Virus record (IMG/VR): IMGVR_UViG_3300011116_001232
Location: 1 to 50,227 of that record
Strand: one strand, 5' to 3'
DNA from: a virus
Length of the DNA: 50,227 nt
The notes under the pieces were generated by a model, which saw only the letters and a list, made by a program, of their open reading frames with translations, did no database searches and was not told where the DNA came from. Positions 7,618-49,190 of this stretch are shown here, in pieces; position 1 is the first letter of the stretch; each line of letters opens with the position of its first letter. A program made the position numbers and the translations under genes.

Positions 7618-8313
7618 TTATGCATTCTCCCTACACATCCGAGAATCTTCATCTGCCTCATCATTTTCTCTTTTATCCTCTTCATATGTATTGATACCCA
7701 ATTCTTCACAAAGTTCATCGGGAACATCTTTGTGTTCGGTATAACATTCATCATCAACTTTACCATTTGGATAAAAATGGTAAGTGCCAAAGAATCCATA
7801 TCCCTCATCCATATAAGTGAGCCGAACAATCTTATTCAGTTTTACTGATAATTTACTTAATGCCCCTTCAGGTGGACTCCACGCTGTTTGGAAAAACAAC
7901 TGCTCGTTATCATCTTTGTCAACGCCACCCCAGCGTGTTTCATAAGTGTTCCATTTGGTTCCCCAGTATTTCACACTCCAGTCATACCATCCAGTCACAC
8001 CATAAAGCTTCTTGCACTTGTCTGATAATTTCTTTTGTTTAATATCAATTTTCTTTCGTTCCTGTGCTGTGCGTTTCGTCATAAGAAAACCCACATCACT
8101 AAACTTTGATGTTTCCAAAATATATTTGGGCATAGGAACAATCTTGTTCAAATCCAAAAAGATGCTGTTTTGCAAATCCTCTTCATTCTCGGTTATCATT
8201 GCCAGTCCATTCACATCACTTGTTGTGTTTTCAGTGGAAAGGAAAGGACGCAATAATCCTTGGATATGTTTTTCGCCCACGATGGTTAGTAGATTTGTTG
8301 TATGATTTGGCAT
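7618..8313 (-). CDS. Api92-like protein (ferredoxin-like domain)
   Basis: 231 residues. It starts MPNHTTNLLTIVG and has the block GWYDWSVKYWGTKWNTYETR followed by FFQTAWSPPEGAL. This combination marks the Api92/YubB-type ferredoxin-like domain found in phages (first named in APSE) and plasmids. The C-terminal third is acidic (DEECYTEHKD..., EEDKRENDEADED). Function is not known; the family is usually encoded among accessory early genes, as here. The start follows TAGGAC, a weak ribosome site. Confidence 0.85.
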   Translation of the reverse strand: MPNHTTNLLTIVGEKHIQGLLRPFLSTENTTSDVNGLAMITENEEDLQNSIFLDLNKIVPMPKYILETSKFSDVGFLMTKRTAQERKKIDIKQKKLSDKCKKLYGVTGWYDWSVKYWGTKWNTYETRWGGVDKDDNEQLFFQTAWSPPEGALSKLSVKLNKIVRLTYMDEGYGFFGTYHFYPNGKVDDECYTEHKDVPDELCEELGINTYEEDKRENDEADEDSRMCRENA

Positions 8314-8328
8314 AGATTTGTCCTAGAG

Positions 8329-8348
8329 AATTATTATCAAAATGTCAA
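8329..8348 (-). promoter_or_regulatory. Early promoter element
   Basis: Minus strand TTGACATTTTGATAATAATT, 15 nt before the Api92-like start codon. Confidence 0.7.
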
Positions 8349-8351
8349 GCA

Positions 8352-8717
8352 TCATTTTATAAATGTTTTTAGGAAAGTATAATCATCATCCCACTTCATT
8401 CGATATTCAGTGAATCCTTCATCATTTTCAGGAACCAACCATTCCCGCAAATCCTTCACCACTTCATCATCAATTTTTGTTTTGAGTGGATAATATGTAT
8501 CTGATTCTTCACTATCAACCCAATCGTTGCTGTACAATTTTCCTTCGCCCAGAATCTCCCAGATATCCTTATCCCCTTCCAGGTCATCTTTGCATAAACT
8601 TTCTTGATAATATTCTGATACTATATGGTCACCGTTATGATGAGCACATGCCACTCCACCATGTTCTGTGACCAGAACACAGTCCGTTTCCCCGCAATCA
8701 AACAACACATATTTCAT
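8352..8717 (-). CDS. Hypothetical acidic protein
   Basis: 121 residues, strongly acidic, with an N-terminal strand (MKYVLFDCGETDCVLVTEHGG), His-rich ACAHHNGDH, and a tryptophan-containing C-terminus. No recognised domain. There is no Shine-Dalgarno; ATATAATATAAA lies directly in front, between the terminator at 8733 and the start, and may be a -10 element. Confidence 0.6.
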   Translation of the reverse strand: MKYVLFDCGETDCVLVTEHGGVACAHHNGDHIVSEYYQESLCKDDLEGDKDIWEILGEGKLYSNDWVDSEESDTYYPLKTKIDDEVVKDLREWLVPENDEGFTEYRMKWDDDYTFLKTFIK

Positions 8718-8732
8718 TTTATATTATATGAA

Positions 8733-8757
8733 ATGGGGGTTAGTAACTTCCCCCCAT
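8733..8757 (-). terminator. Terminator of the 8778-9242 gene
   Basis: ATGGGGG/CCCCCAT stem with an 11-nt loop, 20 nt past the stop. A short ATTTC tract follows, so it is a moderate terminator. Confidence 0.6.
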
Positions 8758-8777
8758 CTCGTGTCGTGCCTCCGAGG

Positions 8778-9242
8778 TTAAACTTTAGTGAAGGTCAATG
8801 CCGTGGTCACCTTGCCACGAATCACCCTCTTCGTTCTTCCTTTCAAATCGGACACGATCTGTTCGCACTCCAATTTGAAGTTTTTGACCTTGCTTTGGTC
8901 TTCGTCCATAGCCCGTCCAATAGCCCGCGTAAGAGCTTTGGGACTGACTTCTTGGGCGAGCTGATACACGATGCTAGCCCAAGGGATTTCCGCCACCACC
9001 ATCTGTTCCTGCGGATTTCCTTTGCGAATCCCACCCTGCACACGCAGGGTAAAATCAATGTTATAGTTTCCTGCTGGCACCAAATCATTGATATGGTCAC
9101 TCAACTCCCTTGTGCTACCTTTCACAAGAGCCAGCAGTTCCACGCTGGACAGGTTTTCGTTGTTGCCTTCCCCACCATAGGGAATGTTGGGCATTTGCGG
9201 GGGAACTTCAATTCCGCCCACATTCTCAATTGCTTTTGCCAC
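8778..9242 (-). CDS. Hypothetical protein
   Basis: 154 residues from GTG, with AGGTGG upstream. The sequence has a Gly/Pro-rich start, a helix (SSVELLALVKGSTRELSDHIND), an amphipathic beta segment (NYNIDFTLRVQGGIRKG) and a basic C-terminus ending TTALTFTKV. GC content is higher than in neighbours. The 100-nt leader is A/G-rich and without a supported ORF. Family not recognised. Confidence 0.65.
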   Translation of the reverse strand: MAKAIENVGGIEVPPQMPNIPYGGEGNNENLSSVELLALVKGSTRELSDHINDLVPAGNYNIDFTLRVQGGIRKGNPQEQMVVAEIPWASIVYQLAQEVSPKALTRAIGRAMDEDQSKVKNFKLECEQIVSDLKGRTKRVIRGKVTTALTFTKV

Positions 9243-9340
9243 TTGCCACCTACTTTCTGATCTCTGCTTTGGTCTGCTTGGGTTTGGCTATCGCCTCTGC
9301 CCTTTGCTTTCCTTTGCTTTGATCTTGATCGACGCTACTA

Positions 9341-9360
9341 AATTATTTCCAAAATGTCAA
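9341..9360 (-). promoter_or_regulatory. Early promoter element
   Basis: Minus strand TTGACATTTTGGAAATAATT. It overlaps the last codons of the upstream DUF6915-like gene and lies 98 nt before the 9242 start. Confidence 0.7.
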
Positions 9361-9713
9361 ACCTTTTTTTCCAATTCTTTTTCCAGCTTGGTTGGAGGTT
9401 GACCCATCCATCTTTCGGGTTTGATATGGCAGAACCAATCTTGAATAGTTGGTATGCGTCCCATATCTTCCAGCACATGCTGTTCGCCAATGAATCGGAC
9501 TGGCACTTTACGACCATCGCTATTGGTAATTGTCGTGCCAAAGATTCTTTCGCAAGTGAAGATTCCTTCGGCATGATGACGCAAGGCACGATGACGAAAA
9601 TCTGCATACATCTTTTTGCTTTCATCAAACCAATCATGGATGGCTTGATAATCTTCGGGTTTGCCCCCGTATTTTCTTACACTACTTACTGAATGATGAT
9701 AAGGATGAGCCAT
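9357..9713 (-). CDS. DUF6915-like protein
   Basis: 118 residues beginning MAHPYHHSVSSVRKYGGKPEDYQAIHDWFDESK, then FRHRALRHHAEGIF, ITNSDGRKVPVRFIGEQHV and GRIPTIQDW. This series of motifs is that of the DUF6915 family from phages and mobile elements. Many conserved histidines suggest metal binding, but no activity is known. AAAGGAG lies 6 nt before the ATG. It is 11 nt downstream of the DUF6878-like gene and probably cotranscribed. Confidence 0.85.
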   Translation of the reverse strand: MAHPYHHSVSSVRKYGGKPEDYQAIHDWFDESKKMYADFRHRALRHHAEGIFTCERIFGTTITNSDGRKVPVRFIGEQHVLEDMGRIPTIQDWFCHIKPERWMGQPPTKLEKELEKKV

Positions 9714-9724
9714 TGTATTCTCCT

Positions 9725-31692: not shown

Positions 31693-34600
31693 TTATTTCT
31701 TTAAATTTTTAATTTCCAATTCTAATTGCTCTATACGCTCCAACAAGTTCTTTATCACAGTGCTGTGATAAGGAATAACTTGGTCATAATTCATGACCAA
31801 TGCTGCACTTGCAGGTGAAACAAAACCGTCTGCATCAATCTTCTCTTGAAGATCAATGTTACCTACAACACTAATCATATGATCAAAACCAGACCGCATA
31901 ACTTGTTGTGCAATGTAACCACTCTTTTTGCCGGGGTTTTCCTTATCTTTCCAATTGAAGGTAACAGCAGAAACACCTTTAACAAAATTTAAGGCATCAT
32001 TTAGGGTGATGGGGACAATGTTTTCTTTCAATCTTTCATCAGATGATGCATCGAACTCTGGACATTGAATGCGTGAAGAGCATGTGAGTGAATAAGGATT
32101 AGGCGATGTTCCGGCTGTAGTTCCTGCCCCACTAGAAATCAAATAACCATAAGGTTGAGTAATAGCGGTATTTCTGCTTGAATTGATGCTAACATAACCG
32201 TTCAGAGTGCCGGTACCTATAGCAACACCTGTTCCAACAGATCCTCCACTTACTGGAGATTGAACTAAAAGATTGAGCTGGCCATTGTTGGTATTGATCC
32301 ACATGGCATTGCCTGAACCTCTGCTATGAATATGGGTGTTACCGTCATCATAGATTTGACTGTTATTATTGTTAAAACCAATATAACCGCTCAGTGCATC
32401 ATTATTAGAGACTACAGCTGCATTAGCACCATATACGTTAATGGCACCGTCATTTGTAATTTGCAACAAATTGGCTGTGTAAGCACTATTAATTATTTCT
32501 AGACCACCAGATGAATTCAAACGGAAAAACTTGCTGGGTGTAGTGGCAGAACCATATGTGTTGGTCACAGATGCAAAATCATGATAACCCACTCCGCCTT
32601 TGTTAGCATAACCATTGATTTGAAGTGTGGAGACGTTGGAAGAATTACCCAGCGTCACAACACCTGATATATTGGCAAGGTTTGTAACAGTTAAAACTCC
32701 ACTTGTGATATTACCAGTAGCACTAATATCTCCTGTGGCACTGATGTTACCTACCACTGTTAGTTTTTCATTAGGATAACCTGTGTTGATGCCAACATTA
32801 CCTGCTGTGTTGACCATGAACAGAGTACTATTGAATCCGGTCAAAACGCTGAAATAATTGACGGCACTGGCACCAGAAAGCGTGGTCAATGTCAGTGCTC
32901 CTTGAATGCTTGAATCCTTGTATGATTTGAATCCTTGACCGAAACCAGCACCTCCAGATACATCCAGATCATTACCCAGTATGGAATTTTGTGCCACATA
33001 CAATTTGTCGGTCTTGATTCCTCCTGTCTGTAATTGTTGTATGTATGCTCCTCCCAGATCAATTATACGTATTGAATTCAATCCGGTTGTTTGATCCAAA
33101 ACATATGCGTAACGTCCCTGTATTTGCAAACAATTCAAATAAGTAGTACTACCTGTACTAACCGATAGTATTTGCACAATGAAAGGAGCAACAGGATTAC
33201 TAATATCAATTTTAAATAAAAGTGAAAATCGCATAACATACAAATAATTTCCTTGCAGAACCATCTCACCATTCCAACTGAGTGGAATGGTTGTAATTGT
33301 AGTGGTTGAAACAACATTTAATCTTGTCAGGTCAAGAATTCTTATAGTGTCGCTTATCTCCATGTATGCATAATTTCCTCGAACAGTAAAAGAATAAAAA
33401 TTTCCGGTTGTACCATAAACAGATATTGGAGCCGGTAGATTACCATTTGCCACATCAGAAACGTCCACTCTATATAAATTAAGACTTCCGAAACTAGAGG
33501 TGATGTAATAAGCATAACGGTCCTGCACAAGCAATCCTCGTGGACTGATTCCTGCTGATGAATAATTTATGATCATGCGAGGATTGGCCGGGTTGCTGAT
33601 GTTCCACACTGTGAATCGTCCTGCACTTGGACCGCTACTATTTGAACCTAATATGTATGCATAGTTTCCTTGCACATAAACATCGGTTGCATTAAAAGTA
33701 CCCCAACCAATTGTGGTAGCACTGATCATGATTGGTGTTCCTGCTGCCAATTTAAATATCAATAATTGGCTGCTAGAGCCGTTGCTTGTCACCACATATG
33801 CATGTTCACCATTCACATACAATCCATAAGGATTGGTTCCAGCTCCCGCACTGACTGTGCTCAACGTACTGGTGTATGAAACGTCAAAAACCTGCAATGA
33901 ACCGCTTGTGTAATTAAGAACATATGCATAATTGCTTTGAACTTTAAGATTGGAAGGCGCTGTCATGGTTCTTGCTGATGCAACACGCACCATGGTTCCT
34001 CGCACATCCAGCGGGGCAATTGGATCAAAAGTCGCGAATCCGGCATTACCTCTCACAGGATCCACGAACATGCCGCTAATGGATGACAACGAAGTGAATG
34101 ACCCGGTATAGGCAAAATCTAGTGGACCTGCATACAATGAACGAATGCTTGTGTTAGCATTTCTATCAATGCTTATGGCAGGTACTCCTGCATTAGGAGA
34201 GAATTGTGCGCTGATTCCAAAAGCATTGGTCGTTTCATTATAAGACATGTACATGCCACTGAAACCTTGATTGCCACTAGCAGTATCATATTCACCTATT
34301 CTCAGTACCGGATTGGTGCCGTCATTGGCAGGAATATGAACCAAGTCTATGAATCTTGCAGATAATGAGAATGAACTGATGCCCACACTGTTGGTAAGTA
34401 ATCCGGTCATATCATCTCCAGACAATTTCACATACTGAGAGCCCAGTGCATAATTGGCACTTATACTTCTCCAATTACTCCATGCAGCAGAATTACTGTT
34501 TGTTGTAGTATAATTAGAATCATACTTTGCTGAATTGGAGTTAAAAGAAGTATAAACTGAAGACCAATTAGCACTATTTGCATTAATCAAACTCATGTCA

Positions 34601-37600
34601 TAAGCAGATAGATATGCAGTACTGTTATAAACTAGATTGGTGTAAGCGGTGTTCCAGTTTGCACTATTTTGAGTTATGGCTGTGCTGTTAAATCCAGATA
34701 GATATGCAGTACTATTATAAATCAGATTTGTATAAGCATTGTTCCAGTTTGCACTATTTGCATTTGTGGTGGTCCAATTACTGTTCCATTGATTACTATT
34801 ACCGTTAGCTACAGTTATAATATTATTGCTGCTAATTGCACCATTAACTGTAAGTTTATTATAAGGTTCATCGGTAATAGTGCCTTGAAAGCTCAAATCA
34901 TTGGCATTTCCTAGAGGATAATTGCTTATGAATCTCAAGTTACCGGTGTTTGTGCCTGCCCCATATGGTACTAAGAAGATGTAGCCTGATGTACCGGGTG
35001 TAATAGTGATAGGATTAGCAGTTAAAGCTTGATTAACTGTGGGTATAATGTCTGAAGGTGTTGCGGCAACAGTAGCAATTGCTATTGTATTTGCAAGTAA
35101 AGGGTTACTGGATGTTCCATATAAAAATCCTATAGAAGAAGGACCATTATTGGAACGATCCACTATAAAGCTTGCTAATGATGATATAATAATTGTTGTA
35201 TTCTGTGTAGAATAAATAGGAATAGTATAATATTCATTGTTTGCAATTGCAGTTGCTACACTAGCTGCACCAATAGTATAATTTTGTGATCCCCATCCTG
35301 CTGTTGATACAAAAGCACCAATACCTGCAGATCTTGTCATAAGACCTGCTGCAATTGATGTAACGCCAAGAGAAGGAGAAGCTGTAGAAGCTGAACTATT
35401 AATCAAAGAAAAGAAATTATATCCGATTAAATCTTGATTATTTGCTATTGTTGTGACCGGTGTTCCTATACCTACGTTACCTACGCGTGTTATAACAAAA
35501 TTTTTTGAATTATTAGTTTCTAAAAAAAGATTATAATTATCATTAGTACCAATATTAATATCATTCGCTTTTGTATTACCGCCGTCTAATATCCAATTGG
35601 CACTATTTGATTGGGTAGTTGAATAATTACTATTCCAATTATTACTGTCACCCCCATCAGCATAAACTATGCCCGTTGCGCTTGTATTACCTACAACAGT
35701 TAATCCATTAGTGTTATTATCTGTACCAATACCAACATTACTTGGGAAGAAAATACCACCGGATGCACTTACTAGGAATTGATCAGTTCTAGTAGTAGAA
35801 ATTACATTAGTATTTGTTGATCCTTTCCATATCCACGTTCTATCATGAGCTGCTTCTGCATAACTACCGGCTGCATGTGAGGTTGCTCCTCTAGCTGTTG
35901 TACTGGAACCTTCCGCATGGCTGCGGGTACCTGATGCTATGCAACTATCACCCTCTGCATGGCTAGCATATCCTGTCGCTCTTGTGGACTCTCCCTCAGC
36001 ATGTGCATAATTGTCTGTTGCTTGGGTTCTGTTTCCTTCTGCATGTGACATTAATCCTGAAGCTATTGTCAAATATCCTTCTGCATGGCTGTAGTTACCA
36101 GAAGCTAATGTACTTAAACCTTCTGCAAAACTATAAAGACCTGTGGCCGATCCTGCTCCAAATGAAGTTTTGATACTATTACCCGAAAGGGTATCTGAAG
36201 TTAATAACAATTTGCTGCTATTGTTTATCTCTAGTGTGAGATTATAATTATCATTGGTACCGATAGAAATATTAGCACCCTTGGTGTTTCCTCCGTCCAA
36301 TATATAATTTCCGCTGTTGGTGTTTACAGTGCTGTAAACACTGTTCCAGTTTGCACTATTTTGAGTTATGGCCGTGCTATTGAATCCAGAAAGATAAGAC
36401 GCACTGTTATAAACGAGATTGGTATAAGCATTGTTCCACTGATTACTATTACCGCCAGAAGCAAACATAGTACCAGAAGCACTAAGACTACCGGTTACAG
36501 TTAGACTATTATTATTAACTTCTAAAATATTAACACGATTTGTATCGCCGCCTCCTGCACCAACCACAAACAATGCATTATTGTTTGGGTTATTATATTT
36601 TCCTACAACTGCTTGATAAGGTGTGCTGCTGAGTGAAATCAATCCTTCTCCACCCAAAGCCACTGAGTTGTCGCTGTAAACTGCATTATAATCACCCGCA
36701 AACGTACCAGACTTTTTGCCAAGTACTGCTCCGCGATATCCCAAGCCATATGAAAAATCTCCATATACTTCAGAGTTACCCAAGCCTACACACTTAACCA
36801 TTCCTCCGCTCAAGTAATTGTAAGGATCTGCAAAGTACCAAGGTTCCCGTTCAAAGTAAAATCCCGTGGTACCAAATGTGGGGCGATGCACTGTATCTTG
36901 AGTGCCACCATATAACAACCATCCAGCATTTCCTGCAGCACTTATGGGCCAGAATCTATTTTCAAATCCATACGAATCCATCAGATTGCACAATGCAAAC
37001 TCCATGTCTGCTCCACTCACATTGATGACATAAGCATCAAAGTAACCAGTACGAACACCAGTAGGAAATGTGCCTTGTGCAAATGTAGAAATTTTATCTG
37101 ATGTGATGAAACCTGTACCTATTGGAGATGTAGATGGCATGGCAGTGGGTATCCACAGTGTCAGTGGTGAACCAGGTTTGAATCCGGAAAGAATAGATGA
37201 TGTTGAGAAGCGAGCCAATGCATGCTTGGTCATGTTCCGATAACATCCAGTAATACCCACATATTGTGTGCTGGGATTGCTTCCTACCTGACTGGTAATT
37301 AGACTAACACCTGGATTACCACCATTAGTTCGTGATTGCAGATTTACAGCTTGAATACCTTTTTGAGCCGGTACCCAGTTACTACCTGAGCCAATAAAGA
37401 AATCAAACTGAAATGCGGAAAGACTTCCGCCATTTGATGAAACTTGAGTACATTGTGAATTGTAAATAACAGCTGCAAGACCGACAAGACCTGGATTCAA
37501 TGTTACACCCACAACAGAACCGGGAGTTATCAAATTATAATTACCTGCACCGAAAGTAGTATCCAATAAAATAACAACACCAGATACTTTGTCTGTATTG

Positions 37601-40278
37601 GTTACAAGGTTGGCATTTCTGGTATCAAAGTATCCGCTAGTAGCTGCAATAGTGGTGCTGATTTGATATTGAGGAAGAGTGTGAACTAAAAATCTTTGTG
37701 AATATGTATTAGATCCATAACCATAAACACTAGTGGAACCACCGTTGGTCATCTGCCATGCTTGTGTATTGTTACTGGGCGCACCTTGCCATTGAACGTG
37801 ATTATGATCTGATCCTGCAGTAAAATTGTCAATACCAGCACGGAATGACATTGCGTGTGTTACTTGTGCGCGTCCATCGCTTACAAATGTAGTTCCTGGA
37901 TCCATGTTATCTACATTCTGTAACCACATACCGTAAGTTCCTTTTCCAGGAAGATTTTGAATACTAGTGCTATAATCTGGTGAATGACCTTTAATAATAA
38001 AACCACCCGGGGATGCAAATGTGGCTTTTGAATTAAAATACAAAGAATTGTCAGTAAGTGTGGAACTTAATGCTACATAGGATGAATTCTTTACAAATGT
38101 GGCAAAGCTGGGTGAAAAGAGATTGCCACCAGAACCTACACTCAAAGTGCCTGTCATAGTATCACCAGATATTTTTACAAAGTTTGTGTTTACATAATTC
38201 AGACTTGCTCCGGTCAGATAACTAGCACTGTTATAAATGAGATTGGTATATGCAGTATTCCATTGATTGCTATTACCACCCAAAGCAGTTATTGTTTTGC
38301 TTGCGCTGATTGCACCTCGAACACTCAATTCAACGGTGGGAAAGCTTTCATTAATACCAACGAATCCGTTACCTCCGGGATTGGCATTGCCCACATGCAA
38401 TACTTCCACTCCATCTCCATCATAAAAACTGGCCACATCATAGGGACCGGCTGCTTGATACACATAAAGAGCAGGTCCTGGACCAGTATTAATAACACTA
38501 AGAGCACTGGTTGTTGTGAAGATGGTATTCTTAAATGTGCTGGTACCCAGGGCTGTTAGATTGCCTTGTATGGTTACGTTGTTTTGGAAAGTTACATTGG
38601 TATTAGTAAGAGCATAATTCGCGCTGTTTGAATTTACATTACTATAAACACTGTTCCAATTAGCACTATTGCTATTAACCAAACTCATGTCATAAGCAGA
38701 CAAATATGCAGTACTGTTATAAACAAGATTAGTATACGCAGTGTTCCAGTTAGCACTGTTCTGAGTTATAGCCGTACTGTTGAAACCAGAAAGATATGCT
38801 GCACTATTATAAATTAGATTTGTATAAGCTAGAGACCAATTCGAACTATTGTTATTTGTTGTTGTGTAATTGCTATTCCAGTTACTTGAATCTGGATTGC
38901 CTGTAAATGCTGTTGTTTGTGTGGTATTGTCTGGAAATGTTAAGCTACCATAACCAACATCAAAAGTCCACCCACTGAAAGCTGAAAGAGAGTTTCCATC
39001 TACAATATTGATAACTTTACGTCCAACAAGAACATTGGTAGGGTTAACTTCAATTTGATTTTGTGATGTGAGACTACTGGATCCACCATCAAACGAATTA
39101 ATACTTTGATGCGCTACAACAGCTTTGTAACCATCCACTGTAACACGACCTTGATATGCTAGAAATGAGCTACCAAGAGTGTTGGTAACACCAGCTGTTA
39201 TAGCAGTCTGGGATGAGAGTACTTCAATTTGCGATCCTGCCGTCAAAGTATCTCCACTACCTATGTCAATCATGTTAAGATTGCTAATAGTAGAATTATC
39301 AATGGTAAGATTATCTGGAAAAGTTACAGCACCGTTACTACTCAATACTACCTGATAAGAGCCATTAACTAATCTATCTGTAGGGCCACTGCCTCCTCCA
39401 CTTAATGCAGACAAGCTAACTGTATTTCCACCACTGATAGAAAGATCTGCATTACTCGAATTAAAGAAAAGAGTTTGAGTACCGCCACCTCCACCATTTC
39501 CAAAGAAATTAGATATATCTCTACCACCGGAAAGTATGTGACCGTTAACATTCAGATCTCCATTCATTGTGCCACCATTGGCATACTGAACTGCATTCGT
39601 ACCACCCCCGCCTCCATAGGCTGCACCTACTTGATTAAACTTTTGGCTTATTTCATCTTTGAATCCTTTGATTTCTCCTTCCACAAACTTGCGAACCAAA
39701 TCTTTAATCAAATCACTTTTATTTTTTGGTTTCTCCTCATTCTCATCTTTTGGATTTTTGACTAGTTCTTTTACATAATCCTTTACACCAGCTTTGGGTT
39801 TGTCTTTTTTGTGAACAATTGGTGAAGAAAGAACTGGTGTTTCTTTTGGAGTTTTTTGTATGATATCTTTTAAATTACCAATAAATTTTTCAAAACTGTC
39901 TTGTTGTGGTTCTGGAGCAGGTTCATCTTCCACCTTCTTTTCCTCATCTTCATCCTGTTTTTCTTGTTCAATTGGCTTGTTTTTGTTGGCACTTATTGTG
40001 TTGGCCAAAGTGTTTACAAATTTGGCAAGAGGATCTTCTTGTGGTTCCGGATCTTTTTGTTGATAGGCAATCGATGAAACAGCTTCAATTTGTGTTGTTT
40101 CAGGAAGTTGATCTTTCAGTTCTTTTTTTATGGTTTCGGCCACACCCAACATGAAACCTTCAAACACATTCTTATTAACATCAACGTTTTGCGAATCTTT
40201 TATAATATCTTTATATTCTTTTGCTGTCTGGATTTTATTTGCTAAATCAGACAGAAAATGATCCAATGGATTCTGCAT
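31693..40278 (-). CDS. Giant mosaic tail-fibre protein with S74 chaperone
   Basis: 2861 residues. 1-220: charged, Lys/Glu/Pro-rich, probably coiled-coil and virion attachment. About 230-330: YANGGTMNGDLNVNGHILSGG and DRLVNGSYQVVLSS modules. 460-560, 680-710, 1290-1330, 1540-1570 and 1830-1950: repeated NSANWNTAYTNLVYNS-type segments. About 1370-1485: YadA-like head repeats (SHAEG every 14 residues or so). About 2100-2420: repeated AYVL/AYV strands like a beta-propeller. The C-terminus has peptidase S74, SDERLKEN with Ser2746 and Lys2751 as the expected self-cleavage dyad, then a coiled chaperone tail. It should trimerise and release its chaperone. A late octamer lies 5 nt before the ATG. Confidence 0.9.
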   Translation of the reverse strand: MQNPLDHFLSDLANKIQTAKEYKDIIKDSQNVDVNKNVFEGFMLGVAETIKKELKDQLPETTQIEAVSSIAYQQKDPEPQEDPLAKFVNTLANTISANKNKPIEQEKQDEDEEKKVEDEPAPEPQQDSFEKFIGNLKDIIQKTPKETPVLSSPIVHKKDKPKAGVKDYVKELVKNPKDENEEKPKNKSDLIKDLVRKFVEGEIKGFKDEISQKFNQVGAAYGGGGGTNAVQYANGGTMNGDLNVNGHILSGGRDISNFFGNGGGGGTQTLFFNSSNADLSISGGNTVSLSALSGGGSGPTDRLVNGSYQVVLSSNGAVTFPDNLTIDNSTISNLNMIDIGSGDTLTAGSQIEVLSSQTAITAGVTNTLGSSFLAYQGRVTVDGYKAVVAHQSINSFDGGSSSLTSQNQIEVNPTNVLVGRKVINIVDGNSLSAFSGWTFDVGYGSLTFPDNTTQTTAFTGNPDSSNWNSNYTTTNNNSSNWSLAYTNLIYNSAAYLSGFNSTAITQNSANWNTAYTNLVYNSTAYLSAYDMSLVNSNSANWNSVYSNVNSNSANYALTNTNVTFQNNVTIQGNLTALGTSTFKNTIFTTTSALSVINTGPGPALYVYQAAGPYDVASFYDGDGVEVLHVGNANPGGNGFVGINESFPTVELSVRGAISASKTITALGGNSNQWNTAYTNLIYNSASYLTGASLNYVNTNFVKISGDTMTGTLSVGSGGNLFSPSFATFVKNSSYVALSSTLTDNSLYFNSKATFASPGGFIIKGHSPDYSTSIQNLPGKGTYGMWLQNVDNMDPGTTFVSDGRAQVTHAMSFRAGIDNFTAGSDHNHVQWQGAPSNNTQAWQMTNGGSTSVYGYGSNTYSQRFLVHTLPQYQISTTIAATSGYFDTRNANLVTNTDKVSGVVILLDTTFGAGNYNLITPGSVVGVTLNPGLVGLAAVIYNSQCTQVSSNGGSLSAFQFDFFIGSGSNWVPAQKGIQAVNLQSRTNGGNPGVSLITSQVGSNPSTQYVGITGCYRNMTKHALARFSTSSILSGFKPGSPLTLWIPTAMPSTSPIGTGFITSDKISTFAQGTFPTGVRTGYFDAYVINVSGADMEFALCNLMDSYGFENRFWPISAAGNAGWLLYGGTQDTVHRPTFGTTGFYFEREPWYFADPYNYLSGGMVKCVGLGNSEVYGDFSYGLGYRGAVLGKKSGTFAGDYNAVYSDNSVALGGEGLISLSSTPYQAVVGKYNNPNNNALFVVGAGGGDTNRVNILEVNNNSLTVTGSLSASGTMFASGGNSNQWNNAYTNLVYNSASYLSGFNSTAITQNSANWNSVYSTVNTNSGNYILDGGNTKGANISIGTNDNYNLTLEINNSSKLLLTSDTLSGNSIKTSFGAGSATGLYSFAEGLSTLASGNYSHAEGYLTIASGLMSHAEGNRTQATDNYAHAEGESTRATGYASHAEGDSCIASGTRSHAEGSSTTARGATSHAAGSYAEAAHDRTWIWKGSTNTNVISTTRTDQFLVSASGGIFFPSNVGIGTDNNTNGLTVVGNTSATGIVYADGGDSNNWNSNYSTTQSNSANWILDGGNTKANDINIGTNDNYNLFLETNNSKNFVITRVGNVGIGTPVTTIANNQDLIGYNFFSLINSSASTASPSLGVTSIAAGLMTRSAGIGAFVSTAGWGSQNYTIGAASVATAIANNEYYTIPIYSTQNTTIIISSLASFIVDRSNNGPSSIGFLYGTSSNPLLANTIAIATVAATPSDIIPTVNQALTANPITITPGTSGYIFLVPYGAGTNTGNLRFISNYPLGNANDLSFQGTITDEPYNKLTVNGAISSNNIITVANGNSNQWNSNWTTTNANSANWNNAYTNLIYNSTAYLSGFNSTAITQNSANWNTAYTNLVYNSTAYLSAYDMSLINANSANWSSVYTSFNSNSAKYDSNYTTTNSNSAAWSNWRSISANYALGSQYVKLSGDDMTGLLTNSVGISSFSLSARFIDLVHIPANDGTNPVLRIGEYDTASGNQGFSGMYMSYNETTNAFGISAQFSPNAGVPAISIDRNANTSIRSLYAGPLDFAYTGSFTSLSSISGMFVDPVRGNAGFATFDPIAPLDVRGTMVRVASARTMTAPSNLKVQSNYAYVLNYTSGSLQVFDVSYTSTLSTVSAGAGTNPYGLYVNGEHAYVVTSNGSSSQLLIFKLAAGTPIMISATTIGWGTFNATDVYVQGNYAYILGSNSSGPSAGRFTVWNISNPANPRMIINYSSAGISPRGLLVQDRYAYYITSSFGSLNLYRVDVSDVANGNLPAPISVYGTTGNFYSFTVRGNYAYMEISDTIRILDLTRLNVVSTTTITTIPLSWNGEMVLQGNYLYVMRFSLLFKIDISNPVAPFIVQILSVSTGSTTYLNCLQIQGRYAYVLDQTTGLNSIRIIDLGGAYIQQLQTGGIKTDKLYVAQNSILGNDLDVSGGAGFGQGFKSYKDSSIQGALTLTTLSGASAVNYFSVLTGFNSTLFMVNTAGNVGINTGYPNEKLTVVGNISATGDISATGNITSGVLTVTNLANISGVVTLGNSSNVSTLQINGYANKGGVGYHDFASVTNTYGSATTPSKFFRLNSSGGLEIINSAYTANLLQITNDGAINVYGANAAVVSNNDALSGYIGFNNNNSQIYDDGNTHIHSRGSGNAMWINTNNGQLNLLVQSPVSGGSVGTGVAIGTGTLNGYVSINSSRNTAITQPYGYLISSGAGTTAGTSPNPYSLTCSSRIQCPEFDASSDERLKENIVPITLNDALNFVKGVSAVTFNWKDKENPGKKSGYIAQQVMRSGFDHMISVVGNIDLQEKIDADGFVSPASAALVMNYDQVIPYHSTVIKNLLERIEQLELEIKNLKK

Positions 40279-40325: not shown

Positions 40326-43055
40326 TTATCCTTGATCTTCAGTCCAAGAGATACGACAACGTGTTATGGATTGATAGTTTACACCAGTATTATCCAGTGT
40401 TTTAGCAAATACTGTGATCACATCAGGTCCGTCTGGATATACATTGTTACCACCCAGAACACCATTACCCAGATCACGTACCACATCCAATTCAAGTCTA
40501 TCCGTATACCATGTGGGATTGGTGTAGTTCACTGTAACAGGTGCGTTTGGCACCACAAAGAATGATCCAACCAAATCACCCCCTGCACCTTCTGCACTAA
40601 AGGTACCAGTTGTAGTATGATCAAAGTACTGTGCAATACTGGCATTACCAGCAGGCTGCCAGCCAGAAGCTATTTTGAAGACTGTGCTTTCACAATTAAT
40701 GCGAGCAAAAATTTGAATAGGCTGTGTTGTTACAACCCCTATGGTACGCAATCGAAGAGCAGATCGGTTAATCAGATTACGTATTCCAAATGCAGCGGGG
40801 ATACCGAAATCTACAGAAGGTGCTAATCTCAGACTAATAATTGCTCGTTCCGTATTGTTTGCGCTCAAAATGTTACCAGGTGAAGCAGTAAACAGATATG
40901 ATTTATCCTCATTGAATCCACCATCAATTAGAGTTGAGACACCCCAATGACTGAGTGCAGGTGAACAATTTTGATTGAATGAAAGCCAACCATCATCAAT
41001 AGAAGCAGTTGTTGGTCCTGCTATCAATCCACCTGTGTTTCTATTATCCAGAGTCAAATTGTTATCTGAAGATTTTGTATATTTGATGTATTCGTTGTTA
41101 ATTAAAATGCGTCCTTTGGATGGTAGAAAAGTACCATCGTCTACTGAAAGGGATGTGGAGATAGTACTAAGATTTGATTTAATTCTTCCCCCTTTGGATC
41201 TGCTTTGAATTTCGAATCGGCCCGGTAAATTTCCAGAACGCATATAAGCTTTAGTGTTAACATTGTTATTATACAATTCATGGAAGTAAGTTATCTTTCC
41301 ATCATTGGCGCGTATACCATAACGAACCTTACCGGCACCATACCATGAGTAATCAATAAACATCATCTGCATTCTGTTAGGATCAAACACATAACCACTG
41401 GCACCAGTACCATCCAGCCTGTCAATATTGAATTGGCTCTGAGGTGTTTTGATTTCCTCTGTTTTGAATATCTTGATATTTCTATCGGATGGACCCCTGT
41501 ATGCAGGTGAAATTACAGCATTATTATTATCCCTAATAGAGGTCATGGTATAAGATTGACCTTTGATAACAATATAATCTCCTTCTTTTAATTGAGATTT
41601 AAATTTGCAATTACCATCAAAACTAGAAATTAGTGTACTGCCGGTGGAAAAAGTAATTGTACCTGCTAGAGGTGTGGTGCTTTGTCGTTTACATGCGTAG
41701 AAATTTGTACCATCATATTCAAAGAATATTCCGTTCTGTTCATCGAAAAGACCAGTTCTGACTGTGGCATCATTCCATCCTCTGACTTCTACTTGTCCCA
41801 ATCCACCTGGATTAAAATCTGTGGTAGGAAATGGGTTGAATGTTGTATTCACCGGAATCTGGAGTCGGAAAGTCTTGCTATCTACCACTTCATATATGGT
41901 GAATGTTTTGTTATATGGGTTTGTTTGGTTTGAAGCACTAATAACAAAACCACTGGTAACAACTGACACACCTTGACGGTACAAGTCGGGTGTGACGAAA
42001 CCATGATATTGATCTGTGGTAATTACAAAATCATAATAAGGGTATGTGGATATGTTGTATTTGGTTGTATCAACACGTGCTGCAACCACATCATAAACCG
42101 GACAAAACAATACACCTGTGCTAAACTGTACACTTTTACCAGATTGATATTTAAAGTATTTTCTTGTTTGTCGTATAACTTGTGCATTGGGTGAAGAAGC
42201 TCCTGGATTAATCTGCACACCCCCGTCATAATAACGGTGAATAGCAACACCGTCAGAACGAGCATAAACCAACCCGGAAGGAGCAACAATTCTAGTTGTT
42301 GAAGAAACAAAATTACTGCTTACTCCTGTTTGATAAGTTACAGTGGTATCCGAATCAATTGCACTTACTGAAAAAGAACCCACATATCTTGCTGTAGGCT
42401 GATTAGAGTCGAGTACATTAATAGGTGATCCAATAAACAGATTGTGAGGAGATGAAAAATTAATTTTTGCAGCGCTTGTAGAAGCCACACCAGATACACC
42501 ATTGATTAACATTTGGGAATTTTCATAAAAAGCACCTGTATATAGAACTGTGTAAGGTGTCTTTTGATCACCGGAAAGAGCACCGGGAGATTTTGTTGTA
42601 ACAACAAAGCTTGTTACACTGGGCACCTGTGTGATTGCATAAGCACCGTCAACAAATATAGAATTTGCAGAATCTTTAATAACAATAGCATCTCCTACTT
42701 TAAAAGGCAGTTTGGGTGTGATATTTACAGCGACTGTGACATTCCTTGATCCAGATGCTGCAATAGGAATTATGGAAGTGATCTGCTCGGCTGTGTAAGC
42801 TGGTTCATTGGAACGGGCAAACACTCCAGGTATGTTGTTGTTAAGGGTAGTAAATTCCCATTTGATGGCTTGTAATGAATATTCAAAGTCTGTATCAATA
42901 AGGCTTTCCGGGTTAGAAACACGCAATTTCTCCACAGCATCTCTGCCGCCATCATTAAATGTGATGCCGTCATCGACTATGGTTTGCAAAAAACCAGATT
43001 CTTTTGTGTACGCCATTTGACCCTCGGGGCTCAGGTGGTTCGCACCACCATCCAT
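40326..43055 (-). CDS. Large virion structural protein
   Basis: 909 residues from the ATG at 43055, the start predicted after intron splicing; the ATG at 43016 (MAYTKESGF) is the alternative. The N-terminus MDGGANHLSPEGQ leads to GRDAVEKLRVSNPESLIDTDFEYSLQAIKWEF, a motif known to me from large structural proteins of T4-like environmental phages. The rest is beta-rich, with repeated strand-turn segments (AITQVPSVTSFVVTT, PYYDFVITTDQYHGF). No enzyme motif. Probably a baseplate or tail-fibre-linked component. Splicing would place AAGGAGG 6 nt from this ATG. Confidence 0.75.
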   Translation of the reverse strand: MDGGANHLSPEGQMAYTKESGFLQTIVDDGITFNDGGRDAVEKLRVSNPESLIDTDFEYSLQAIKWEFTTLNNNIPGVFARSNEPAYTAEQITSIIPIAASGSRNVTVAVNITPKLPFKVGDAIVIKDSANSIFVDGAYAITQVPSVTSFVVTTKSPGALSGDQKTPYTVLYTGAFYENSQMLINGVSGVASTSAAKINFSSPHNLFIGSPINVLDSNQPTARYVGSFSVSAIDSDTTVTYQTGVSSNFVSSTTRIVAPSGLVYARSDGVAIHRYYDGGVQINPGASSPNAQVIRQTRKYFKYQSGKSVQFSTGVLFCPVYDVVAARVDTTKYNISTYPYYDFVITTDQYHGFVTPDLYRQGVSVVTSGFVISASNQTNPYNKTFTIYEVVDSKTFRLQIPVNTTFNPFPTTDFNPGGLGQVEVRGWNDATVRTGLFDEQNGIFFEYDGTNFYACKRQSTTPLAGTITFSTGSTLISSFDGNCKFKSQLKEGDYIVIKGQSYTMTSIRDNNNAVISPAYRGPSDRNIKIFKTEEIKTPQSQFNIDRLDGTGASGYVFDPNRMQMMFIDYSWYGAGKVRYGIRANDGKITYFHELYNNNVNTKAYMRSGNLPGRFEIQSRSKGGRIKSNLSTISTSLSVDDGTFLPSKGRILINNEYIKYTKSSDNNLTLDNRNTGGLIAGPTTASIDDGWLSFNQNCSPALSHWGVSTLIDGGFNEDKSYLFTASPGNILSANNTERAIISLRLAPSVDFGIPAAFGIRNLINRSALRLRTIGVVTTQPIQIFARINCESTVFKIASGWQPAGNASIAQYFDHTTTGTFSAEGAGGDLVGSFFVVPNAPVTVNYTNPTWYTDRLELDVVRDLGNGVLGGNNVYPDGPDVITVFAKTLDNTGVNYQSITRCRISWTEDQG

Positions 43056-43059
43056 TAAA

Positions 43060-43297
43060 CTGGAGCGCGACGTTGTTCTTTGATTACTCAAAGCTCGGAC
43101 TATATCTTCAAAATATTATATATTCTGTTGGACGCTCTTGCTGGTTATTAAGGCTTCCTATGCCTCCAGTAGTCTCTACACCTTCATGAAAAGCGTTTCA
43201 TGCTTGGCTCGGTATTACCCTCGACTTTCACGTAGGGCTTCACCGAATTCATCCAATATGGGCCGTTTTTTTAGTTTAAATTATTCTAATGCTGTAT
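43060..43297 (-). ncRNA. Group I intron (subgroup IA-like), no ORF
   Basis: The minus strand shows the full core. P3 is TTGGAT/GTCCAA, P4 CGGT/ACCG, P5 CCCT/AGGG, and P6 a CATGAAA/TTTTCATG arm. P7 pairs AGACTA with TAGTCC in the diagnostic GAAGATATAGTCC. There are P7.1-type insertions between P7 and P3, P8 is AGAATAT/ATATTTT, and P9 CTTTGA-GTAA-TCAAAG has a GNRA loop. The 3' splice after CCAG (43060) and 5' splice after GGTT (43298) are predictions: exon GGUU pairs with GGCC before P3, ending in U-G. Splicing gives AAGGAGGTTTTTAATGG. Confidence 0.85.
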
Positions 43298-45992: not shown

Positions 45993-48900
45993 TTATATTT
46001 CTGTCTGCAATTGAGGTATATCTTTTCTTATGGCTGTAAATGACCAGAAGAATTTATATTCACCTTTGTCAAACAGTTTCTTCTCACACTTGACTGTGAA
46101 TGTGTTGTTATTCACATCTATATCATCCACAAACAATGTTTTGTTATGTTGATAATTAGTTAATTGAATATTTACACCTTCTTGATGTACCAAGCTAAAA
46201 ATATAATCTGGAAGCGGGACTACAACTGAGTCACCGCATTTCACAGATCCATTGCCGGTTAATCGAATACCATGGTAAGGAGATTCCAAGCTTCCATATT
46301 GCAAATGCATGTCAGGTTTGGTGGGATGTGGAATATAGAATGACTTGGTTGCTGCTGCCACATGGTTAAAGAACCCAGTGGATTGAGATGATACAGATGC
46401 CACAGTATTAAAGGCACCAGTGGGTGTAATGTAGGCCAGGGTTACAGGAGTAACATTTCTCCATTCAGTAAGATTACCAGTTTGAGCAGTGGAACCTGTG
46501 ACTCGTAGCACAGCAGCAGCTGCATTTGAATTGGCTATGTCTACATTGACTGTAGCAGTGGTATTAACAGAAAATTGTGAACTACCTGTTTGTGGGCCGC
46601 TATTACCATTTGTGACTCTAAATATGGGTGACACACCGCCACCACCCACAGTAATAGTACCATTGCCAGAACCAATGTAACCATTGTATATCTCACCAGC
46701 GCCACCAGAAGCTCTGAGATTAATAGCTCCACCTACATTAGCAACACCACTAACGGGCCGCACAACAATATGGCAGTTATCTTCTGCAGCAGCGGCTGTG
46801 GTTGTGCGTACCAGTATACCTTTCGCGGTTTGAGTTGTTAATGTAATGTCAGCTCCGCTCAAAGTACCTGAAGCACTAATATTGCCAGATACAGTTAATC
46901 TTTCTGTAGGTGCCGTGGTACCGATGCCAAGATTGCCCGATGCATTTAATCGCATTGATTCGGTTATGTTGTTTGAAAAGCTAAGAATACCGGTGCCTGC
47001 AGACCAAAGACCAGCGTTAACGCCCCCAGTTTGAAATGTTATGCCGTTCTGCCAATTGGCTCCACTCACTCTCAGATTATCTAAAACCCATCCTGATCCA
47101 GCTATCTTAGAAAATGTTCCGTCACCAATTTTGATATAACCGGTATTACCATTACCAACTATTAATGCAGGGTTTGTTGTATCGTTGATGGTTAATGGCC
47201 CAGTCATAGTATCACCAGACAGTTTTACAAAGTTTGTGTTTACATAAGAAATGCTGGCCCCAGAAAGATAATTGGCACTGTTATTAACAAGATTGGTATA
47301 AGCAGTGTTCCAGTTGGCACTATTTTGTGTTATAGCAGTGCTATTAAATCCACTTAGATAAGCAGCACTATTATAAATTAGATTTGTATATGCTTGGGAC
47401 CAATTAGCGCTTGTATTTTTTACTGTAGTAAAAGTACTATCCCATTTACTTGAATCTGGATTGCCTGTAAATGCAGTTGTTTGTGACGTATTGTCTGGGA
47501 ATTTTAGACTGCCATCTGTGCCAAATTCCCATAGATACGGTGTACCACCAGTATTAGTAGCAATACTAGCATAGGTGTTAGCACGTAATTCAGCACCGAA
47601 TGTACCCATAAACAATGCTGTGGTATCATCTGGTGTAGTTGTTAAGTATGCTGTGTTAGGGCCAAAGCCTACAAGATCCAACTTGCTATTACTTGCTGTA
47701 ACTATTGCTCCGGGTACAGTTAAATTACCATCACTGCTTAGTACTGCCTGGTAGGAGCCGTTAACCAATCTATCTGTAGGCCCACCACCAGAAAATATAT
47801 TTAATAAATCAACACCACCTGAAAGGATATTACCATTGACATTCAGATTTCCGTTCATGGTTCCACCATTTGCATATTGAGTAGCTACCGATCCTCCTCC
47901 CCCTCCAAGATCCAGTATACGTTTGGCATAACTCTTCGTATCTTCAGAAACACGTTTGACTTGAGAATCGGTATATTTTTTGCTTAAGGAAATAATATCA
48001 TCTTTTGCTTCGATCAACATTTGCCCTTCTTTAGGCAATTGATCCAATTTTTCCTGAACAAGTTTTATTTTTTCATCAAGAGAAGGAGTTCTTTCATTAA
48101 ACTCATTTACAGTTTTTTCTAATAAGTTTTTTAAATCTTCTATGTTTTTACTAAAATCTTTTTGAAGTGTGGATCTTTCTTTTGATATGAATGTATTGAT
48201 ATAATCACCCACATCTGTTTTTTTCTTTTCCAGATATTCTTTTACAAGATTTTCGTTGATACTGTTTAGTTCTTGAATCAGTTTTTCTTTGTATTGTTGT
48301 AAATCCACAACAAACTTTTCATCAAACAGTTTTTTAAGTTCATCAGATTTATCAACAATTTTGGATACAAAGTCATCTCCTTTGTTTTCCAATAATGATA
48401 TTAGTTCGCTTTTTTGTTCATCGATTCTTTTTTCTAGAAAGCTTTTGAGTTTTTCAACATTATTTCTGTTAAGATCTTCCAATACTATTTTGATATCCTT
48501 ACCATGAATTTGTTTTTGTTCATCCAATTCATTTTCAAAATTCTTTAGATTTATACTAAGCTTTTCTTTGATTGTATTTTCTTGTTTTTCTGAAACATTT
48601 AAAAATTCTTGAAGAAGACTTTGCTTATAATCATTAATCTTCTCTTCTATGATTCTTTCATTTTTTACAATCTGTTTTTGCTCTTCCAGTTCTTTTCTTT
48701 CCTTAACAAGTCTTGCTTTTTCCTCAATCAGACTCTGCTCAAGTTGTTTTGCTTTCCGGATATATTCCTGATCCTGTTTTATTTTGTTTATGCTTTCAGA
48801 AACATCCAAGGGTTTTGCAGGTTTGACCTGTGCTTTATTGGTTTCAACTATCAGTTGCTTCTTTTCAGGAAGCTTGAATGAATCCGCAACAGATGTTTCA

Positions 48901-49190
48901 CCTTTTGGATTAAAGGTTGAAAAAGGTGTTTCTCCTTTTTCATTTAAAATTACCTGAAACTTTACATTTTTGTATGTTTGACCATCCGAAGTAGTAACAT
49001 CCGTAATAATATATTTTTTATTATTTTCAGTTACGTATTTATGTACAAAATCTTTATCCTTTGTGCTAAAATTACCTGTTTCAAACAGTTCATCCCTAAA
49101 GCTTTTACAAAATATAACATTTTGACCATTAACATCTTGTATAAGATTAATGGGTATTCGTTTATCTAAAACTACCTTGATATGATCCAC
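45993..49190 (-). CDS. Large tail-fibre protein with coiled-coil stalk
   Basis: 1065 residues from GTG, with TATAAATA 5 nt upstream. 1-115: N-terminal globular domain (MDHIKVVLDKRIPINLIQDV...). 115-430: long Lys/Glu coiled coil. About 435-460: YANGGTMNGNLNVNGNILSGG. 470-600: DRLVNGSYQAVLSS and SLKFPDNTSQTTAF modules. 600-680: NSANWNTAYTNL repeats. C-terminus (about 950-1065): KSFYIPHPTKPDMHLQYGSLESP... IQLTN... KKLFDKGEYKFFWSFTAIR, a terminal domain known from phage fibres. There is no S74 dyad. Likely a trimeric fibre sharing modules with the giant fibre. Confidence 0.85.
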   Translation of the reverse strand: MDHIKVVLDKRIPINLIQDVNGQNVIFCKSFRDELFETGNFSTKDKDFVHKYVTENNKKYIITDVTTSDGQTYKNVKFQVILNEKGETPFSTFNPKGETSVADSFKLPEKKQLIVETNKAQVKPAKPLDVSESINKIKQDQEYIRKAKQLEQSLIEEKARLVKERKELEEQKQIVKNERIIEEKINDYKQSLLQEFLNVSEKQENTIKEKLSINLKNFENELDEQKQIHGKDIKIVLEDLNRNNVEKLKSFLEKRIDEQKSELISLLENKGDDFVSKIVDKSDELKKLFDEKFVVDLQQYKEKLIQELNSINENLVKEYLEKKKTDVGDYINTFISKERSTLQKDFSKNIEDLKNLLEKTVNEFNERTPSLDEKIKLVQEKLDQLPKEGQMLIEAKDDIISLSKKYTDSQVKRVSEDTKSYAKRILDLGGGGGSVATQYANGGTMNGNLNVNGNILSGGVDLLNIFSGGGPTDRLVNGSYQAVLSSDGNLTVPGAIVTASNSKLDLVGFGPNTAYLTTTPDDTTALFMGTFGAELRANTYASIATNTGGTPYLWEFGTDGSLKFPDNTSQTTAFTGNPDSSKWDSTFTTVKNTSANWSQAYTNLIYNSAAYLSGFNSTAITQNSANWNTAYTNLVNNSANYLSGASISYVNTNFVKLSGDTMTGPLTINDTTNPALIVGNGNTGYIKIGDGTFSKIAGSGWVLDNLRVSGANWQNGITFQTGGVNAGLWSAGTGILSFSNNITESMRLNASGNLGIGTTAPTERLTVSGNISASGTLSGADITLTTQTAKGILVRTTTAAAAEDNCHIVVRPVSGVANVGGAINLRASGGAGEIYNGYIGSGNGTITVGGGGVSPIFRVTNGNSGPQTGSSQFSVNTTATVNVDIANSNAAAAVLRVTGSTAQTGNLTEWRNVTPVTLAYITPTGAFNTVASVSSQSTGFFNHVAAATKSFYIPHPTKPDMHLQYGSLESPYHGIRLTGNGSVKCGDSVVVPLPDYIFSLVHQEGVNIQLTNYQHNKTLFVDDIDVNNNTFTVKCEKKLFDKGEYKFFWSFTAIRKDIPQLQTEI

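Follow-up and report, generated by a model that had tools for sequence, protein, structure and literature searches.

The locus described here raises two related questions: (i) what kind of structure would be built from a single phage open reading frame of 2861 residues; and (ii) how its separate modules came to be joined in one chain. We consider it probable that the gene encodes a long host-recognition fibre subunit, in which separate modules are carried on linkers that double as recombination joints.

The fibre gene and its neighbourhood

The window (the whole stretch of DNA that was analysed) is the linear IMG/VR record IMGVR_UViG_3300011116_001232, which has 50,227 bases and lacks end repeats; other viral contigs are referred to by L numbers. 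A sigma-factor gene and seven tRNAs are encoded on the same contig. The gene under study, P1, is the final large gene in a minus-strand block that runs from fibre A (P3) through four smaller genes and P2 to P1 itself. The named genes are:

31693..40278, minus strand: P1 (fibre B), an open reading frame of 2861 residues, with ATG at 40278 and stop at 31693
40326..43091, minus strand: P2, 921 residues, a virion structural protein (phrog_5838) encoded immediately upstream of fibre B
45993..49190, minus strand: P3 (fibre A), a second fibre of 1065 residues, with linkers in common with P1 and a different C-terminal tip

The coordinates and length given for P1 in the initial annotation were exact, and the frame is open throughout; its strand had been overlooked, the plus strand across 31693-40278 being stop-rich.

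Attachment of P1 to the tail is assumed here, and one alternative is that it is head-attached or forms some other virion-surface fibre, such as a whisker-like one. P2 lies immediately upstream and phrog_5838 is filed by PHROGs under head and packaging; a P2 orthologue is followed by a fibre in L026 (IMGVR_UViG_3300023174_000138) as well. PHROG categories are, however, inherited annotations, and receptor-binding tail fibres and spikes are where an S74 domain (see below) and recent domain exchange are typically met (PMC3742443, PMC10684548). We regard a location other than the tail as unlikely.

Modular organization of P1

From the N-terminus to the C-terminus, the following parts of P1 can be distinguished:

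39592..40278, minus strand: N-terminal charged region, residues 1-229, 35% D/E/K/R; presumed attachment region
38593..38889, minus strand: NSxxW linker 1, residues 464-562; DNA-level homology to linker 5 and P3
38275..38592, minus strand: small module of beta type, residues 563-668; counterparts in L008, L010 and L042
38167..38274, minus strand: NSxxW linker 2, residues 669-704, from the repeat pattern
36481..38112, minus strand: mobile module of unclassified family, residues 723-1266; identity to its counterparts in other contigs' fibres is 66-95%
36289..36450, minus strand: NSxxW linker 3, residues 1277-1330; putative right-hand recombination joint
35839..36171, minus strand: YadA-like head, residues 1370-1480; six 14-residue SHAEG repeats
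35593..35658, minus strand: NSxxW linker 4, residues 1541-1562, from the repeat pattern
34801..35592, minus strand: module without an assigned fold, residues 1563-1826, from sequence comparison
34444..34800, minus strand: NSxxW linker 5, residues 1827-1945, from the repeat pattern
33049..33978, minus strand: LVIVD seven-bladed beta-propeller, residues 2101-2410, from Pfam, motifs, AlphaFold and Foldseek
32044..33033, minus strand: beta-rich stem, residues 2416-2745, preceding the chaperone; in L026, too, 2416-2513 follow the propeller
31696..32043, minus strand: Peptidase_S74 intramolecular chaperone, residues 2746-2861, with Ser2746, Lys2751 and a C-terminal coiled-coil-like segment, LLERIEQLELEIKNLKK

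The initial annotation had described a charged stalk. The charge is borne out, and the region is N-terminal; "stalk" is that annotation's label only. An N-terminus of the same type is present in L008 and L010. Within the charged region, a helix-like motif, [DN][PS][LF]xxF[ILV]xxL, occurs three times (window 39900-40272, minus strand), and a similar motif occurs twice in the L008 fibre; it is possibly a docking motif.

The NSANW-type repeats noticed earlier amount to 21 NSxxW copies under one strict pattern, compared with a maximum of 4 in shuffled sequence. They are spaced by 14 or 16 residues within five clusters, and the clusters separate modules; on this arrangement the repeats are linkers. 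Their hydrophobic periodicity gave neither a clear helical nor a clear strand signal. An extreme of the same organization is seen in L056, where one open frame of 4043 residues has 37 NSxxW-type linker motifs. The small module between linkers 1 and 2 is about 50-72% identical to its counterparts in L008, L010 and L042 over the matched stretches, some of which include linker. For residues 1563-1826, a clear relative was not found in related viral contigs or by profile scans.

Linker repeats reach about 89% DNA identity, and in an IMG/VR contig without end repeats this raises the prospect that assembly fused several fibre genes at the repeats into one chimeric open reading frame. The longest exact repeat is 31 nt inside P1 and 29 nt between P1 and P3, so that a repeat-driven artefact is unlikely. 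Several block adjacencies are also confirmed by independent contigs: linker 1, residues 563-668 and linker 2 in L010; linker 2, the large module and linker 3 in L007 and L011; and linker 5, propeller and stem in L026, residues 1300-1850 having the least independent support. Together with the uninterrupted frame, these observations make a chimera very improbable, and we rejected it.

YadA-like heads

The SHAEG head repeats are confirmed as six copies in strict 14-residue register at residues 1397-1467; none of 2000 shuffles of P1 gave even one adjacent SHAEG pair. The head region matches phrog_25468 (E 1.5e-20), and its best solved relative is the head of the trimeric autotransporter BpaC, with a composition-biased match (E 1.2e-4). 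The Pfam YadA_head family (PF05658) requires 25 bits and scores 15.5 here, so we call the heads no more than "YadA-like". The C-terminal YadA anchor barrel was not matched in P1 by Pfam, the C-terminus being S74, and by sequence the resemblance to trimeric autotransporter adhesins is limited to the head. The tail fibre of Verrucomicrobia phage P8625 and the tail spike of Flavobacterium phage immuto carry SHAEG heads that are 48-55% identical within P1 residues 1371-1511; the likeness of these proteins is confined to the head and covers 4-5% of P1.

An LVIVD-type propeller

The region of AYVL strands that had been called propeller-like holds seven blade motifs of NYAYVL type at residues 2113-2386, against a shuffle maximum of 1, and Pfam LVIVD (PF08309) matches with 31.9 and 41.7 bits (cut-off 20.2). 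As the earlier annotation anticipated, structure prediction shows a propeller: the AlphaFold model has about 28 strands in the propeller part, with pLDDT values for the most part between 65 and 93 at about residues 60-370, counted along the modelled stretch. Foldseek matches the model to seven-bladed propellers (E about 1e-12, TM up to 0.76), which include beta-TrCP, YncE and PRPF19 and have WD40 folds among them. Seven four-stranded blades are thus a secure prediction. Sequence searches gave less: the propeller profile found weak kelch matches only in the PDB, the propeller was unmatched among cultured phages, and a literature search for LVIVD in phages returned nothing relevant. In the Foldseek viral library there are large uncultured-phage proteins with propeller-like parts, one of them named an intramolecular chaperone auto-processing protein; the pairing of propeller and chaperone may therefore not be unique.

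The S74 tip

The assignment of a self-cleaving S74 chaperone to the C-terminus holds up. Pfam PF13884 (Peptidase_S74) matches residues 2746-2796 with 45.8 bits (cut-off 22, E 7e-12), the putative dyad lies in S2746-D-E-R-L-K2751, and 116 residues run from Ser2746 to the end of P1, as had been counted. In the S74 family the Ser and the Lys of the dyad are separated by five positions (S578/K583 in MYRF; PMC3742443), and the spacing in P1 is equal. By analogy with the family (PMC3742443), P1 would trimerize and release its C-terminal 116 residues.

A different tip is found in the fibres of P3, L007, L011, L008 and L015, where a common segment of ~135 residues (IPHPTKPDMHLQYGSLESPYHG in P3) replaces S74; it matches phrog_17490 and phrog_28536, both without assigned function.

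A conserved module of unclassified family

The large module at residues 723-1266 had been overlooked, and by sequence comparison it is the most conserved and most mobile module of P1. Eight distinct relatives from IMG/VR contigs were aligned (L007-L012, L014 and L023; 66-95% identical); L013 comes in addition, with match values equal to those of L012. The module's flanks differ among these fibres, the neighbours being unrelated, and at E 1e-8 the examined stretches of L009 and L014 have no similarity to the window beyond the module. The 217-kb L014 record likewise gave no match to the sigma factor or P2 of the window, an absence that proves little in fragments. The gene immediately preceding the module-bearing fibre of L014, at 8065-9714, has matches to PHROGs of RCC1 type (regulator of chromosome condensation).

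No significant match to the module was found in Pfam, NCBIfam or, with the module profile, the PDB. Comparison of nine module members with PHROGs gave a best value of 0.0018 with a function-less profile matched in four of the nine, which is unconvincing. Relatives were not found in a cellular genome collection through the module's conserved patterns, and among cultured phages the module core had no match of weight. An AlphaFold model built from nine sequences was discarded (pLDDT 27), and we make no claim about the fold.

Module order in related fibres

The same modules recur in other arrangements. In P1 the order is small module, large module, heads, propeller and S74. In the L008 fibre, the P1-type N-terminus is followed by the small module, propeller, large module and P3-type tip, so that propeller and large module are reversed relative to P1. 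In the L012 fibre the large module stands together with SHAEG heads and a BNR propeller. In L026 the fibre occupies the same position after the P2 orthologue and has linkers and an LVIVD propeller as in P1, with 46-47% identity to P1 over residues 2048-2513; it is shorter (1096 residues) and carries a second, EPTP/BNR-like propeller where P1 has heads and module. S74 was not matched in the L026 record. The two propeller-type regions of L026 (6570-9857) differ and stand in tandem, EPTP/BNR-like first and LVIVD second.

Cassette junctions within linkers

A clear view of module movement comes from L007 and L011. In the last 1.8 kb of the window, beside and into fibre A, these contigs agree with it at 97.6-97.9% identity, and their sigma factors are 96-97% identical to that of the window; by this measure they are close sisters of the window phage. 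Their fibre A, the orthologue of P3, nevertheless holds a cassette corresponding to P1 from residue 667 or 673 to 1297, at 89-91% DNA identity, between P3-type ends. A full fibre B was not found in these records, which are maybe incomplete, either downstream of the P2-like genes or elsewhere; nothing of it was detected beyond linker-like and N-terminal matches.

The edges of the cassette can be placed with the help of one short string:

38174..38196, minus strand: 23-nt joint TATGTAAACACAAACTTTGTAAA, on the module's left edge; the window's other copy lies in P3 at 47224-47246

In the window, P1 and P3 have one copy of TATGTAAACACAAACTTTGTAAA each. In both L007 and L011 it brackets the cassette on both sides, with the copies 1.8 kb apart, and it is absent from all other contigs of the viral collection. 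In the left linker of L011, informative sites are mostly P3-like before the 23-nt string common to P1, P3 and L011, and P1-like after it; inside the right linker, P1-like sites give way to P3-like ones. The right junction of L007 is as in L011, and its left linker is P1-like, so the left junctions differ.

The cassette junctions are thus shown, at the level of sequence comparison, to fall inside NSxxW linkers. This is the pattern that linker-to-linker homology exchange would leave, and we infer a route by homologous recombination. Because L007 and L011 are sisters, their junctions may record a single event.

A model for the fibre

In the reading that we favour, the phage would be tailed and P1 would be a subunit of its host-recognition fibre, with a very long chain. 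Three such chains would wind together, guided by the C-terminal S74 domain, which would then cut itself off at Ser2746. The mature fibre would display the unclassified module of ~550 residues, the YadA-like heads and the seven-bladed propeller along its length, strung on NSxxW repeat linkers and probably contacting receptors. The linkers, because they are similar at the DNA level within and between both fibre genes, would act as homology joints for the exchange of entire modules from one fibre gene, or one phage, to another. From fibre biology, one or more modules would bind the host, and several binding sites on one predicted fibre, as the initial annotation proposed, are plausible.

An alternative is that most modules are spacers or structural, with recognition confined to one part (for example beside the S74 cut, or residues 723-1266) and the rest setting the length. 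Linkers and heads are low-complexity repeats and the binding roles are putative throughout, which would fit. Propeller and module, on the other hand, are exchanged whole and turn up in several combinations, which is how functional units would behave, although this is not proof of binding. On the whole we find this alternative doubtful, and prefer a fibre with several recognition modules.

A further extension would treat the linkers as a common socket system of short DNA stretches that resemble one another, through which unrelated phages plug whole receptor modules into any fibre gene, residues 723-1266 being a widely travelling plug-in with a new binding or enzymatic fold. We put this forward tentatively, as an idea that may well prove wrong.

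Relation to known systems

Several aspects of P1 have precedents. Both YadA-like domains and S74 were described for the tail fibres of marine phages in 2014 (PMC3909814). These pelagiphage fibres share both domains with P1 and have a hypervariable host-recognition region; they also have a T7-type N-terminal domain, which was not matched in P1, whereas P1 adds the propeller, the linkers and the large module. The endosialidase of phage K1F consists of a propeller, a stalk and a C-terminal chaperone of S74 type (PMC12632334), and this tailspike, like P1, has its propeller upstream of a self-cleaving Ser/Lys-dyad chaperone (PMC12632334, PMC3742443), cleavage in P1 being predicted by analogy. The K1F protein, however, is enzymatic and its propeller is a sialidase; the propeller of P1 is of LVIVD type and is accompanied by heads, linkers and the unclassified module, and the sialidase family (endosialidase GH58) was not matched in P1 in Pfam and NCBIfam scans. 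A YadA-like head and a propeller do stand in one fibre, as first noted; to call this unusual was an overstatement, given the 2014 report, the K1F plan and L012.

Recent domain mosaicism is concentrated in tail fibres and spikes (PMC10684548). Compared with the mosaic receptor-binding proteins described there, the present case has joints that are mapped to nucleotides within one defined type of linker repeat, and a mobile block that is not assigned to any family. What is already known, then, is YadA-like and S74 domains in fibres (PMC3909814), propeller with chaperone (PMC12632334) and fibre mosaicism (PMC10684548); what is new is the way in which the modules are combined, a module family without classification and joints resolved to the nucleotide.

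Module exchange among phage fibres is well known; its joints are seldom caught. Here, a single cassette occupies different fibre genes in sister phages that are 98% identical next door, and its edges fall within a repeat linker, which makes the idea of linkers as recombination joints directly testable. The strongly conserved, unclassified module of ~550 residues is well worth structural and binding studies.

Finally, we note a difference in the genes upstream: L007 (11343-18817) and L011 (16381-23813) have two tandem P2-like genes of ~1250 residues, and the window has one, of 921 residues.
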